Source of the DNA: Flavobacteriales bacterium
GTDB lineage: Bacteria; Bacteroidota; Bacteroidia; Flavobacteriales_F; PHOS-HE28
Assembly: GCA_018057455.1 (NCBI GenBank)
Contig: JAGPDT010000004.1
Coordinates: 1 to 57,235 of the forward strand
Length of the DNA stretch: 57,235 nucleotides
Direction: 5' to 3'
Below, piece by piece: positions 39,225 to 54,603 of this stretch (positions within the stretch are counted from its first letter, which is position 1; every line of letters starts with the position of its first letter). The notes under the pieces were generated by a model. It was not told where the DNA came from. It worked only from the letters and a program-made list of their open reading frames with translations, and ran no database searches. The position numbers and the translations under genes were made by a program.

Positions 39225-39387
39225 CCACGGCCTTCATGGCCGCACGACTTTACCGGCCAGCGATGCGCCGCCGGCCCCGGTGGCACGCAGCAAATAGATG
39301 CCTGGGGCTTGCGCGGCCAGGTCTATGGCCTGTCCGTTGCCCTGGGTGGCCCAGGTGGCTATTTGCCTTCCCGTGGCGTCGTATGCG
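39225..39387 (-). repeat. 163-bp repeat, copy 1 (T9SS sorting-domain 3' end)
   Basis: Identical to 40640-40802. It covers the last 50 or so codons of the upstream gene, its stop, and an ATGAAGGCCGTGG start-like sequence that overlaps that stop. Confidence 0.92.
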
Positions 39388-40652
39388 ATGAGGGTCCATA
39401 GGCCAACAAAGGGCAATTCCACCCGCCAATGGCCGGGGGGGCCAAGTGGTGTTGCCGTAAGGGAAGGGCTATGCGTCGCAGGGTGCTCGGCGATGCCCAC
39501 GGGGCTGCAATTCCCCACGGCATCCCCGCCGATCCATTGCGCCACCTGGCGGATGGGCTCACCATCAATGGCATTGAAACCACCGGCCACATACAGGGTA
39601 TCCCGCCAAACAGCCAGGCTATTGATGAGCGCGCCACCTTGAAAATCACCCGGGTAGCCACACCAACGCTGCCCATCCCATTTGGCGATGCGGTCCACTT
39701 CAACGCCACCGGCGCGGTTGAATTGGCCGGTGACCACAAGCTCACCGTGGTAGAACCCAAGGCTCAATCCCACCCCATTTTGATCGACGGGAAAATACCC
39801 TAACCCCCCGCCAAGGTCATCCCAATTATCCCCATTGAAGCGGGCCACCATGTTGCCGGGTGCCCCGGCAGCCGTGTGGAACGCACCTACCACGTAGAGG
39901 GTGTCGTTGTGTACAAGAACGTTCTTCAGGATCCCGGAATTGTTCCAGCCGGGCACATATTCCCATTGGGTACCGCTCCAGCGCATGAAGGTGGAATACC
40001 CCTGGCCCAAGGGATCGCTAAAGTCCCCCGACACGTAGGTCTTGCCCTTGTAGTCGAAGACGGTGCCCACGTAGTTGTCGCTGTCGTATTCCACTTGGTC
40101 AAAGGGGGCCCAAGGTGTGAATGTGGAACCATCGTAGGTATACACGTTGCTGGTGGCCTGGCCGCACAAGGTGCCGGGATAGCCCGTGGCATAAAGCGTA
40201 CTGTTGGGGATCCGGGGTACCAAGTGTTGCAAGCCGTTGAAGGGACCATTCACACATTCCAGCGCTTCCCAAAATTGAGTTTGCTCGTTCAGTCTGGCTA
40301 AACTGTTGTTCACTTCGCCTTCGCTGTTCAAGAACAAATTCGCCCCGCTGGAATACAGATCACCCTGAAACCGGATGAACCAATAGGTTTGGCCATGCCC
40401 TTCCACGATCCGGTGTGCCAAACTGTCCCAACGGAAACCATTCCATACGGCCTGGCCATGGGCTTCAACCGTGTCCTCCTCGTTCATGATGGCGTCGAAT
40501 GTTCCACATGCCAATAATCGATTGGCAATGGAGTCGCAGTACAATCCTTGGATTTCGTAGATACTGGTCGGCCCCTTGCCCATGGCCTTCCAGTATTGGG
40601 CGTTGGCCACCGTGCTCAATAGCACGGCGGCGCCCATGACCACGGCCTTCAT
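39234..40652 (-). CDS. T9SS type A cargo, beta-propeller-like (kelch/galactose-oxidase type)
   Basis: A 472-residue secreted protein. Signal peptide MKAVVMGAAVLLSTVANAQ, then repeated modules of the form RLNEQTQFWEAL, VYTYDGSTFTPWAP, FMRWSGTQWEYVPG, VARFNGDNWDDLGGG and IAKWDGQRWCGY, each with a following LYVVGxF or VTGQF strand; this is the blade pattern of a propeller. The C-terminus is a sorting domain (WTLIAYDATGRQIATWATQ to AGKVVRP). The last 50 or so codons are identical to those of the neighbour at 40649. Its ATG overlaps that gene's stop by four bases (ATGA), so they are an operon. The ligand is unknown. By eye it is less GC-rich than the surrounding core genes. Confidence 0.85.
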   Translation of the reverse strand: MKAVVMGAAVLLSTVANAQYWKAMGKGPTSIYEIQGLYCDSIANRLLACGTFDAIMNEEDTVEAHGQAVWNGFRWDSLAHRIVEGHGQTYWFIRFQGDLYSSGANLFLNSEGEVNNSLARLNEQTQFWEALECVNGPFNGLQHLVPRIPNSTLYATGYPGTLCGQATSNVYTYDGSTFTPWAPFDQVEYDSDNYVGTVFDYKGKTYVSGDFSDPLGQGYSTFMRWSGTQWEYVPGWNNSGILKNVLVHNDTLYVVGAFHTAAGAPGNMVARFNGDNWDDLGGGLGYFPVDQNGVGLSLGFYHGELVVTGQFNRAGGVEVDRIAKWDGQRWCGYPGDFQGGALINSLAVWRDTLYVAGGFNAIDGEPIRQVAQWIGGDAVGNCSPVGIAEHPATHSPSLTATPLGPPGHWRVELPFVGLWTLIAYDATGRQIATWATQGNGQAIDLAAQAPGIYLLRATGAGGASLAGKVVRP

Positions 40653-40802
40653 GGCCGCACGACTTTACCGGCCAGCGATGCGCCGCCGGCCCCGGTGGCA
40701 CGCAGCAAATAGATGCCTGGGGCTTGCGCGGCCAGGTCTATGGCCTGTCCGTTGCCCTGGGTGGCCCAGGTGGCTATTTGCCTTCCCGTGGCGTCGTATG
40801 CG
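40640..40802 (-). repeat. 163-bp repeat, copy 2 (T9SS sorting-domain 3' end plus next start)
   Basis: Identical to 39225-39387. Beyond 40802 the two copies still match for about ten bases with several substitutions, then diverge. Confidence 0.92.
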
Positions 40803-43405
40803 GCGAGGGTCCATTGGCCGGGGAACGGATAGCGTACACCCCATTGCGCAAAGCCTTGCAAGGGCACAACGAACAGTTCGGGTTTGGCCGCTTCCTCCGG
40901 GAGGCCCACATGATAGTTGGAGGCAAAGGAGGCAATAAAGGCCTCGCTGGTTTGGCTGGTGCTTTCCTGAAGGACCTCACCGTAGTAGTTCCATTCAAAA
41001 TCCAGGAAGTACTCGAAGGCATACCCGGGTAGAAAGCTCCATACGTTCTCCCCCCCGTAATTGCCATCCTGGAAGAAATCGAAGTCGTCGTCCGCATCAT
41101 ATTCCAGCAAGGGGAAGCCCTGCCACGGACTGGAGGCGGCGGCGCCCACGATGTAAACCGACGTGGTGGAGGCCGCAATGCCCCAGCCCCGTTCGCTCTT
41201 GGTGCCACCGAAGGCGGTGCGTACGCGCATGATGGGGGCGTGCTGCACATTGTCAATGGCCAGGATGACCGCATCGCGGGAGTTCATGTTGGCATTCAGC
41301 GGTTGGTAGTACCAGTCCGGGTTGATGTCCGCAACGATACCCGTATTGCTGCGGCTTTCCCCGATGATGTAGACCTTGGATCCATCGTGGCCCACATCCA
41401 ACAGCATGTCGTCGGCAGGCCCTCCGATCAACGTGCCGTACTGCAAGGCGAATGTCTCGGGGTTCATGGAGAAGATGAAGCCCTCGCAGCGGTTGTACCA
41501 GTCGCCACCGCTGTGTGTGGTGGTATGGTATACCCCGGGTACATTCGGGTCGGGGCAATCAACATTGGTAAGGTCCGTAGCGTGGGTGCCGCCTACCACC
41601 CAAAGGTTTTTGCCTGCCATGTCCAGCCCCATGGCAATGGTCATGGCCGTGTTGTCGTATGCGTTGTCCAACCCGCCCCACGCGGTCAGGTACTCCAATT
41701 GCAAGGTGGCCAGGTCCATGCTCCCCAAAATGGCCTCTACGCCCAAGCCGGAGGGGGCTTTATAATAACCGGTACCCCATGGCGAGGGCGTCCCGGCCAA
41801 GGGTGCACCGTTATCCAGGCCTGCGGACCCGGCCAGCCAGAGTTTTCGGGAACTGTCCCACGAAGAGGAGGTGAACTCCAGGTCATTGATCTGGTCAAAG
41901 GGGCGATGGCCGTCACGCCCGGCAAACGTGGTGCTCCAGCGGATGGTGCCGTCTGCATTGTAGAGCACAATGAACGCGCCACCGTTTGCTTTGGTAAAGG
42001 CTCCCGGCGGGGTCACCAGGGGAAATGCCGGGTAATTGGGGCGGTCAAAGTCCAACCGGCCACCTACCGCCACCTGGCCACTAACGAGGTCCACGGCCAC
42101 CGAGAGTCCGTCTGCCGCCCACGTGGTGCCGCCCGTTTGTCCACGCGTGGTGGCCCAATCGCAAACGCCGGTGCTCTTTCTGAAAGCGCCCAGCCACATC
42201 CGCCGGATACCGCCCAAATTGGCTTGGGTTGGAGCGTTGGCGTAAATGGACAAAGGAGTAGCTATTGTTGGGAAATCCGTGCAATTGGTGGAACCGGCAG
42301 TGTATACGTATTGCCTATCCGCGGCCTGCCCGGTGTACAAAGCCAGCCGCTGTGCGCTGGTGCAAGCGTCGTATGAACTGTAGGTTGTGCCATTTCCCTC
42401 GCTACCGCCGTAATAGGTGGCCCAGGAAAGCTGCTTGTTGTCCCCCCTGAACTTGAGCACGATGGCATTGTCCGCACCGGGCGGAAACTGCACCGCTGGT
42501 GGATACTGCTCCGTACCAGGGGATACGGGGAAATTATAACTCCACGAATTCCCGCACACGTAAGCGTTTCCATCAGTGTCCGTTTCCACGGCAGAGAATG
42601 TTTCGCCAAGGGTTCCGCCCATGAAGGTGCTCCATTCCAAGTTGCGCGTGTCATTCCCGTCTTGTGCCGCGGAGGCATAGCCGATCTCGATCACCAAGGT
42701 CTTGGTATTGTCGTAACTCCCCACATTGAAACCCACGATGGCGGAACTGTCCTGGTGGTTGTAGGTGGGGGTCCAACTGATGGGGAGCAAGGTGCCGTTG
42801 CCCTGCACCTGGTAGGCCACGCCTTCCCTCAATTCCATCCAATAGTCCTGCAGGAACATCATAAGCCCGCCTTGCCAATTGATGCCCAGGCTGTCCTGAC
42901 CGGAGAACTGGAGCTTCAAATGGTTCGGGTTTCCGCCCGGCCGCAACACCAAGGCCAGGCGCGGACCACCGGCCGATCCGTACACATGGAGGTCCAAGCT
43001 GTCGCGCACGTTGGAGTATGTGCCTCTGTAATAGGCCGGGACCTGTTCGGCCGTTACATCCCCCAAATAATAGTTGGCCACCCCGGCGGCGGGTACGCTC
43101 AAGGCGGGAGTAAGCTTGCGGGAATTCAAAACGGTCATGTCCACCCGGTAGGAGGTACTGGTACCTGAGCTGTCAGTCGCCACCTTGGCATAGGTCATTG
43201 ATACTTGGGTGTCTTTCCGCAGGAAGATCCCGAAGGGCGATGACTCAAAGCTGCCGATCACATCCGGCCTGGGGATATGGTCGGTGTCCTTTTCCTGCCC
43301 GTTGTTCCGCCTGATCACGCAGCTTCCTTTGTGCTCATCCCCGAATTGGTCGGGAGGCCATTGTGCGATCAAGGCCGTTGATAAGGAACTGCCCATCAGC
43401 AGCAC
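40649..43405 (-). CDS. Large SBBP-type beta-propeller T9SS type A cargo, possibly phase-variable
   Basis: A protein of 918 residues from the GTG at 43405. The N-terminal part (about 20-240) has ESSPFGIFLRKDT; then come repeats typical of SBBP propellers: LEWSTFMGGTLGETFSAVET, DGNAYVCGNSWSYNFPVSPG, LSWATYYGGSEGNG, RWSTTFAGRDGHRPFDQIND, LQYGTLIGGPADDMLLDVG. It ends with EAFIASFASNY and a T9SS type A sorting domain. From GTG the signal peptide lacks a basic n-region (MLLMGSSLSTALIAQ), but the same frame upstream encodes arginine clusters before FFAVLLMG. An ATG at 43499 would include them if the 8-bp repeat between changed length. Cotranscribed with the gene at 39234. Confidence 0.82.
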   Translation of the reverse strand: MLLMGSSLSTALIAQWPPDQFGDEHKGSCVIRRNNGQEKDTDHIPRPDVIGSFESSPFGIFLRKDTQVSMTYAKVATDSSGTSTSYRVDMTVLNSRKLTPALSVPAAGVANYYLGDVTAEQVPAYYRGTYSNVRDSLDLHVYGSAGGPRLALVLRPGGNPNHLKLQFSGQDSLGINWQGGLMMFLQDYWMELREGVAYQVQGNGTLLPISWTPTYNHQDSSAIVGFNVGSYDNTKTLVIEIGYASAAQDGNDTRNLEWSTFMGGTLGETFSAVETDTDGNAYVCGNSWSYNFPVSPGTEQYPPAVQFPPGADNAIVLKFRGDNKQLSWATYYGGSEGNGTTYSSYDACTSAQRLALYTGQAADRQYVYTAGSTNCTDFPTIATPLSIYANAPTQANLGGIRRMWLGAFRKSTGVCDWATTRGQTGGTTWAADGLSVAVDLVSGQVAVGGRLDFDRPNYPAFPLVTPPGAFTKANGGAFIVLYNADGTIRWSTTFAGRDGHRPFDQINDLEFTSSSWDSSRKLWLAGSAGLDNGAPLAGTPSPWGTGYYKAPSGLGVEAILGSMDLATLQLEYLTAWGGLDNAYDNTAMTIAMGLDMAGKNLWVVGGTHATDLTNVDCPDPNVPGVYHTTTHSGGDWYNRCEGFIFSMNPETFALQYGTLIGGPADDMLLDVGHDGSKVYIIGESRSNTGIVADINPDWYYQPLNANMNSRDAVILAIDNVQHAPIMRVRTAFGGTKSERGWGIAASTTSVYIVGAAASSPWQGFPLLEYDADDDFDFFQDGNYGGENVWSFLPGYAFEYFLDFEWNYYGEVLQESTSQTSEAFIASFASNYHVGLPEEAAKPELFVVPLQGFAQWGVRYPFPGQWTLAAYDATGRQIATWATQGNGQAIDLAAQAPGIYLLRATGAGGASLAGKVVRP

Positions 43406-43446
43406 CGCAAAGAACCTTCGCCTGAACGTTGGTCCTGTCCTGCGCC

Positions 43447-43493
43447 GTGTTGCGGTGTTGCGGTGTTGCGGTGTTGCGGTGTTGCGGTGTTGC
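43447..43493. repeat. Octanucleotide tandem repeat, 5 full copies plus 7 of 8 bases
   Basis: The plus strand repeats GTGTTGCG without mismatch over 47 bp (CGCAACAC on the minus strand). It lies between an ATG (43499) and the present in-frame start (GTG 43405) of the surface protein gene, so copy number sets which frame the ATG reads. Confidence 0.9.
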
Positions 43494-43616
43494 TTCCATT
43501 ATGAAAAGATTTTGATCGGACGAAAAGTTACGCACACAATGTAATGAGGAACCGGATGTAGGGCAAAGGGTGTTTCATGCACGGCCGGTAGCGGCTTCAC
43601 GTGTGCCATTGGGGTG

Positions 43617-44837
43617 GTTCAAAGAACCTGGTGAGAACTTGACGGTGTAGGATCTTGACATTACCGATGCTGATCGATCAATTCGCAGCATGAAGAAGCG
43701 CCCGACCCGCAGCCTGTTCGACGAGCATTTCCGCGACCAAGCCCTGGAGAAGATCAACGACGTGCTCCCCCGGCTGTCCCGCATGGTTGACTGGGAGTCC
43801 TTCCGGCCTGAACTTGAAGCACACTTCCCAGTACGGGACCCGAAGAAAGGAGGACAGCCGCCGTACGACCGGCTGATGCTCTTCAAGGCCGTGGTGCTCA
43901 TGGAGCTTTACGGATTGAGCGCCGAGGCGCTGGAATACCAGGTCAATGATCGCCGCAGCTTTCAGCGCTTCCTTGGCCTGGAGCCACAGCACCAGGTACC
44001 GGACTCCACCACCGTGCGCCTGTTCGTGGAGCAGCTCACCAAGGCCAAGGCCATGGAGGGCTTGTTCGCCTCCTACCATGCACGCTTGAGTGCGCCGCAA
44101 CTGGTGCTCAACCAAGGCAAGATCATTGATGCGAGCATGGTGCATGCGCCCATCCAGCACAACAAGCGGGAGGAACGCGAACTATTGGAGGACGGCGAAC
44201 TGCCCGATAACTGGTCAGCACGCAAGAAGGCGCAGAAGGACCTGGATGCCACCTGGGCCAAGAAGAACAGCAAGAGCTATCACGGGTACAAGAACCATGT
44301 GAAGGTGGACTCGGGCAGCAAGCTGATCGATCACTACGTGGTGACCACGGCCTCGGTCCCCGATGGGGAGATGGCCTGGGAGCGGCTTGATGAGCGCGAT
44401 CAAGGCCAGGACCTGTACGCCGACAAGGGCTATGATTGGGAGGATGTGAAGGATGGCATCGCACTGGCCAAGATGAACGACCGCACCCACAAGAAAGCTC
44501 GTCGCAACAAGCCGCTCACCGAGCAGGAAGAAGCCCATGACAAGGAACTCAGCCGGACCCGCGCCCGCGTGGAGCATGTGTTCGGCAGCATGAACAAGCA
44601 GTTGCACGGGTTGAGCGTCCGCTGCATCGGCCTGGTGCGGGCCACGTTCCGGGTAGGCCTTACCAACCTGTGCTACAACCTGCTGCGCACGCTCACCCTC
44701 TTATCCGAACGACCATCCGTGGGGAGCGTGTGACCGGACGGAGCCAAAAAGCGGGGAAAACCGCCCAAATCCCCAAGGAATGAACCCAAGCCCAATCATG
44801 CAAAATGCTCCACTTCGTCAAGCAGGGTTCTTCGGAC
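43617..44837 (+). mobile_element. IS5-family insertion sequence, ends only approximate
   Basis: One transposase gene fills the element. A weak inverted match (AAGAACC-TG near 43622-43630 and its complement CAGGGTTCTT at 44823-44832) could be the termini, giving about 1.2 kb. No target duplication was recognised. The ends need comparison with other copies. Confidence 0.4.
43690..44733 (+). CDS. IS5-family DDE transposase
   Basis: A 347-residue, apparently intact transposase. The N-terminal domain has ALEKINDVLPRLSRMVDW and the IS5 segment GQPPYDRLMLFKAVVLMELYGLS. The DDE catalytic residues are Asp147 (KIIDASMVHAPIQHNK), Asp245 (LYADKGYDW) and Glu295 (RTRARVEHVFGSMNKQ); the last matches the Y/R-x3-E-x6-K signature of the family. 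No frameshift or stop interrupts it, so it may be active. It sits between the surface protein genes and the oxidoreductase gene, inside the segment flanked by the 128-bp direct repeats. Confidence 0.93.
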   Translation: MKKRPTRSLFDEHFRDQALEKINDVLPRLSRMVDWESFRPELEAHFPVRDPKKGGQPPYDRLMLFKAVVLMELYGLSAEALEYQVNDRRSFQRFLGLEPQHQVPDSTTVRLFVEQLTKAKAMEGLFASYHARLSAPQLVLNQGKIIDASMVHAPIQHNKREERELLEDGELPDNWSARKKAQKDLDATWAKKNSKSYHGYKNHVKVDSGSKLIDHYVVTTASVPDGEMAWERLDERDQGQDLYADKGYDWEDVKDGIALAKMNDRTHKKARRNKPLTEQEEAHDKELSRTRARVEHVFGSMNKQLHGLSVRCIGLVRATFRVGLTNLCYNLLRTLTLLSERPSVGSV

Positions 44838-44932
44838 TACCCATTGGTAGGTCACCGGTAACTCGCCTGCGTTTGCAACGCGCGGGGCATCCCACCGCAC
44901 GTGCAGAACATCGGTTTCCACACATGGGTAAT

Positions 44933-54516: not shown

Positions 54517-54554
54517 TCGGTTCCACACTTCAACTTCCGTTTTCATTTTTCATT

Positions 54555-54603
54555 TTTCAGCTTTCAGCTTTCAGCTTTCATATTTCCACTTTCAGCTTTC
54601 GAA
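54555..54603 (+). repeat. Heptanucleotide pyrimidine-rich repeat upstream of moaC-mogA
   Basis: Seven consecutive 7-bp units: TTTCAGC three times, TTTCATA, TTTCCAC, TTTCAGC and TTTCGAA, ending one base before the ATG at 54605. The preceding bases (from 54540) are further TTTTTCAT-type sequence. Confidence 0.85.

Follow-up and report, generated by a model that had tools for sequence, protein, structure and literature searches.

Candidate translational phase variation through non-triplet repeats in the signal-peptide code of a T9SS beta-propeller protein family of uncultured Flavobacteriales

A surface protein gene on the minus strand of the window (the whole stretch of 57,235 nucleotides that was analysed, from a Flavobacteriales bacterium) is in all likelihood subject to slippage-driven translational phase variation, judging from sequence comparison at the locus and across its family. 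The gene encodes a T9SS beta-propeller protein, and an octamer array separates a likely ATG start codon from the remainder of its signal-peptide code. The features of the locus are the following.

39234..40652, minus strand: second T9SS-type beta-propeller gene, 472 aa, with a sorting domain at 20.8 bits, below the cut-off
40649..43405, minus strand: 918-codon open reading frame (ORF) of the surface protein
40676..40816, minus strand: T9SS type A sorting domain (TIGR04183), residues 864-910, 24.7 bits (cut-off 23)
42527..42583, minus strand: SBBP beta-propeller repeat (PF06739), residues 275-293, 22.6 bits (cut-off 20.5)
42689..43189, minus strand: DUF7948 domain (PF25778), residues 73-239, E 1.1e-20
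43335..43337, minus strand: TGA at which, in the present (OFF) register, the ATG frame stops after 54 codons
43361..43423, minus strand: RRRFFAVLLMGSSLSTALIAQ, signal peptide in the protein frame (basic stretch, hydrophobic core, probable cleavage end), from by-eye translation
43403..43405, minus strand: GTG, the sole start codon of the protein frame from the upstream stop as far as the hydrophobic core
43447..43493, minus strand: tandem array (CGCAACAC)x5.9, Tandem Repeats Finder, 100% match
43497..43499, minus strand: ATG, likely the ON-register start codon, out of frame in the present assembly
43499..43501, minus strand: stop codon TAA of the protein frame, upstream of the array and overlapping the ATG
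43612..44842, plus strand: IS5-family insertion sequence with imperfect 17-bp terminal repeats and a probable ATTG target duplication
43690-44733, within the preceding element: IS5-family transposase

The array has an 8-bp period and extends over 47 bp with zero mismatches, and the preliminary description, which placed five full units of such a repeat between two start codons of a surface protein gene, is borne out. Its account of the reading frames also holds: ATG 43499 opens a short frame ending at TGA 43337-43335, and the protein frame, closed by the TAA at 43501-43499, contains no ATG, GTG or TTG before GTG 43405, from which the 918-residue protein would begin with a 15-residue leader containing zero basic residues. 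The distance from ATG 43499 to GTG 43405 is 94 nt, so that one repeat unit more or two fewer, as had been proposed, restores the frame. Downstream of the array the protein frame reads RRR-TGPTF-RRR-FFAVLLMGSSLSTALIAQ and continues for about 900 more residues to 40649. Judged by eye this is a putative Sec signal peptide, which joins the ATG frame only after a change in repeat number, and the array, once in frame, would encode RNTATPQH-type repeats within its n-region.

We propose that replication slippage in the CGCAACAC array moves the ATG towards or away from the signal peptide by 8 bp at a time. Of the three registers, one would place the ATG in frame with the basic n-region and the hydrophobic core, giving a functional Sec signal peptide and allowing export of the T9SS-sorted beta-propeller protein (ON), and in the other two translation would end early (OFF). 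The locus would presently be OFF, as read from one consensus assembly. Since the array sits in the part removed on export, frame-keeping changes in its length would leave the mature protein unaltered. Many family members in the genus would carry the same switch in their signal-peptide segments, built from different units, and the benefit may be a variable surface in the face of phage, predators or changing surfaces.

The repeat is exceptional in its surroundings. Across 40 order-2 Markov shuffles of the window, no tandem array exceeded 24 bp (mean of the longest 19 bp), and in a 786-kb sample of the same genome, which excludes the stretches chosen for other family members, no other non-triplet repeat is as long as the 47-bp array, the runner-up being 26 bp; the CGCAACAC array was found once in the genome. 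As in SSR phase-variable loci, the tandem repeat is thus above chance expectation, has a unit indivisible by three and lies between a start codon and the functional coding part, with one of three frames ON. Among 91 control secretory-looking ORFs of the sampled genome, none has a non-triplet array in its first 120 nt; all of these controls have their ATG already in frame, so the comparison informs on the rarity of arrays rather than on registers. At the same thresholds the genome sample contains 111 triplet-type arrays against 30 others, the opposite of the pattern in the gene family described below.

The product resembles T9SS type A cargo (TIGR04183) in having a C-terminal sorting domain, a secretory N-terminus and a beta-propeller repeat, with the sorting domain exceeding its cut-off by a narrow margin (24.7 versus 23 bits). 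The AlphaFold2 model, at a mean pLDDT of 62, is weak and supports only the beta-propeller reading. Among known folds it comes closest to the beta-propeller enzyme CylK (7fh7; Foldseek E 7e-17), a match at 14-15% identity and from a weak model that does not imply enzyme function. The start of the second beta-propeller gene overlaps the end of the first (ATGA) and may therefore be translationally coupled to it, in which case the OFF register may also lower expression of this downstream gene. Proteins sharing that C-terminal end come after several homologues too. The C-terminal ends of the two adjoining proteins (40649-40816 and 39234-39500) closely resemble each other (77% over 86 residues), which suggests gene conversion or recent duplication. 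On the other side of the locus, the IS5-family element ends 112 bp upstream of ATG 43499.

Searches spanning 45 genomes of the genus (G000 being the genome of the window) recovered homologues with 41-47% identity that bear other repeats at the same position, the first of them AAGG and AAGA tetramers, a C22 tract at a contig end, the heptamers CAGAACG and AAAACGC, and a 14-mer. We surveyed 45 5' ends of the family, all from this genus of uncultured Flavobacteriales, and in 20 of them the signal-peptide segment contains a non-triplet repeat, consisting of polyC, (CT)n, AAGG, one of five heptamers, one of two octamers or a 14-mer. Unit lengths are accordingly 1, 2, 4, 7, 8 or 14 bp, with no multiple of three among the 20. 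Octamers, heptamers, tetramers and the 14-mer are found in the n-region or immediately downstream of the ATG, (CT)n tracts supply the code for a Leu-Ser hydrophobic core (G000:C10, G000:C19, G033:C1b, G030:C30b), and C9-C10 tracts occur near the signal-peptide end. The sequence ATG(CAGAACG)3 has three occurrences in the 45 genomes, every one in this gene, and the genome of the window itself holds three members combining long intact ORFs with 5' arrays (an octamer on C74, (CT)10 on C10 and (CT)21.5 on C19).

Registers were assigned partly by hand from the sequences, with signal peptides judged by eye and by simple rules; one member (G023:C3) was excluded from the frame count as its domain is internal to a longer ORF. 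Fifteen of the 18 readable array-bearing members are out of frame; a change of one or two units would bring any of them into frame, with no intervening stop, and the remaining three are in frame (G023:C5, G010:C30, G003:C16). Both ON and OFF registers therefore occur among related copies, across species and paralogues rather than at one locus in one species. OFF copies do not significantly exceed two thirds (15/18, p = 0.10). Members without a repeat are in frame in 22 of 24 cases, and both exceptions (G010:C57, G022:C5a) fall inside an array-bearing clade. Array presence is associated with being out of frame (Fisher p = 9e-7, ignoring kinship); a pair-based, kinship-corrected association test was not significant and, with four independent pairs, was underpowered. 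A value of p = 0.0116 for the lack of units divisible by three was set aside as it assumes 11 independent arrays. The contingency-locus geometry put forward in the preliminary description is kept by relatives in the genus with differing non-triplet units, most of them one or two units off frame.

Were the gene always translated from GTG 43405 or some other start, the array would be untranslated or irrelevant, and the presence of that in-frame GTG, together with in-frame GTG or TTG codons that are possible starts in three "OFF" homologues (G033:C1a, G025:C52, G000:C10), is what such constant translation would need. We regard it as very unlikely: the leader from GTG 43405 lacks the basic residues noted above, five other out-of-frame members (G002:C1a, G037:C1, G030:C30b, G011:C164, G004:C24) offer no in-frame start that the applied rule accepts as usable, and the (CT)n arrays, which themselves code for the hydrophobic core, must be translated for export to occur.

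A still less likely explanation is that arrays grew by chance in genes whose frame was permanently lost and that are now decaying as pseudogenes. The majority of array-bearing copies are indeed out of frame in the assemblies, and truncated or fused remnants (G000:C85, G042:C264) and frame-shifted segments (in G000:C108) exist, but full-length ORFs at ~45% identity are free of internal stops, every copy is just one or two units from being in frame, triplet units are absent, and the pattern is repeated in many species. Moreover, two out-of-frame (CT)n copies, G000:C19 and G030:C30b, differ by dN 0.15 and dS 0.96 (dN/dS ~0.16), and are evolving under purifying selection rather than as free pseudogenes. 

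In the family tree the array trait requires 8 changes, at least 4 of them on well-supported branches, and close relatives differ in unit, the clade of nine that includes the gene of the window having units of 8, 4, 4, 14, C and none. It seems somewhat probable that, genus-wide, the signal-peptide segment of this one surface-protein family repeatedly gains unstable repeats that replace each other, with switchability itself, and not any given repeat, being selected. Members differ in repeat unit at a constant position, which makes the family a natural setting in which to compare how contingency loci originate and are replaced.

Assemblies also bear on the stability of the arrays. Genomes G001 and G002 are 100% identical over 5.3 kb around a heptamer array, but an N-gap lies inside the array of G001, and two contigs end within arrays, at C22 (G034:C52) and (CT)18 (G030:C55). 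Such gaps and contig ends fit unstable arrays, short of proof. The metagenome-assembled genomes (MAGs) do, then, break at family arrays, as would be expected if assembly or polishing errors at low-complexity sequence had displaced arrays that are really always in frame. This is less likely again than gene decay, given that a 47-bp array fits inside ordinary short reads, that out-of-frame arrays occur in many independent assemblies including the single-contig genome G002, and that miscounting cannot explain why non-triplet arrays are present at all. The least likely of the alternatives is that the array acts by spacing, on transcription or translation efficiency, and not on reading frame. A separate class of (CT)n arrays outside long ORFs, ~300 bp upstream of other secretory genes, indicates that spacing effects may exist in the genus, but the family arrays come after the ATG and within the signal-peptide code, and their units are never multiples of three, which is expected for frame switching and not for spacing.

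Translational switching by frame, the reading we prefer, has its closest known parallel in the opa genes of Neisseria, in which (CTCTT)n repeats lie within the leader-peptide code (PMC3960869). In both systems a non-triplet repeat in the signal-peptide code would alter the frame by slippage, and several paralogues occur per genome; the parallel extends to the (CT)n members, with their Leu-Ser core. The systems differ in that a T9SS beta-propeller protein from another phylum takes the place of the Opa outer-membrane protein, that the unit varies between members at a constant position, and that switching is here deduced from sequence. The matches to DUF7948, SBBP and the T9SS sorting domain in Pfam and NCBIfam set the protein apart from Opa, and it is not filed as such. 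Other SSR contingency loci include those of Neisseria repeat surveys with PhasomeIt (PMC5953494) and badE of Bartonella (PMC11466379), which are likewise surface-protein genes with repeat length setting ON or OFF. Those loci belong to host-associated bacteria and their variation was seen in strains or passages, whereas the present organisms are uncultured and apparently free-living, with variation deduced from assemblies. In the open-access literature we found no paper on repeat-based phase variation of T9SS cargo, or linking phase variation with repeats in this group. The family PHOS-HE28, to which the genus probably belongs, has been described from wastewater and activated sludge (PMC7214798), and wastewater is probably the habitat of this genus.

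If the proposed switch is real, a genus-wide switchable T9SS family in apparently free-living Flavobacteriales would point to selection unrelated to host immunity, for instance by phages, by predators or through surface attachment. The best-known examples of repeat-based on/off switching come from host-associated bacteria. A practical consequence would be that automatic annotation of such MAGs will misplace start codons or label these genes broken.

Three irregular family copies were noted. On G000:C85 (L224:1760-1788) a remnant consists of an ATG, (CT)14, a signal peptide, ~45 residues and a stop, and is followed by a propeller-like secretory gene. In G042:C264 (L064:1791-1823) the C-terminal third of the protein is fused straight onto an ATG with AAGGx8, through either recombination or an assembly chimaera. 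A paralogue in the genome of the window (G000:C108:7642-9945) matches the family across two reading frames, with a pair of shifts that compensate each other.

Arrays of the second (CT)n class, with 10-36 units, occur in about 11 genomes (L214-L223, L227, L228, L166-L169), mostly preceding a conserved stretch of ~120 nt, ACAATGACRCGGCCTGCAAAGGCC...AAGCCCCCGGTGCT..AACACCAGGGGCC..., with no Rfam family match at these sites. Where checked, these arrays stand ~300 bp ahead of secretory genes that begin ..AQNLVPNxSFEE, and one site has 17 units in G001 and 14 in G002, with flanks 97.4% identical. The remaining homopolymer and heptamer arrays in the sampled genome of the window are mostly intergenic or away from gene starts. 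The exception is a C9 tract (L091:1495-1503, on G000:C104), which lies in a segment resembling a signal peptide in another secretory gene and is not in frame with that gene's ATG; the gene is cut off by the contig end. Within the window, TTTCAGC/TTTTCAT heptamer repeats at 54540-54600 lie directly upstream of an ORF starting at ATG 54605, and their unit reappears at L090:9834.
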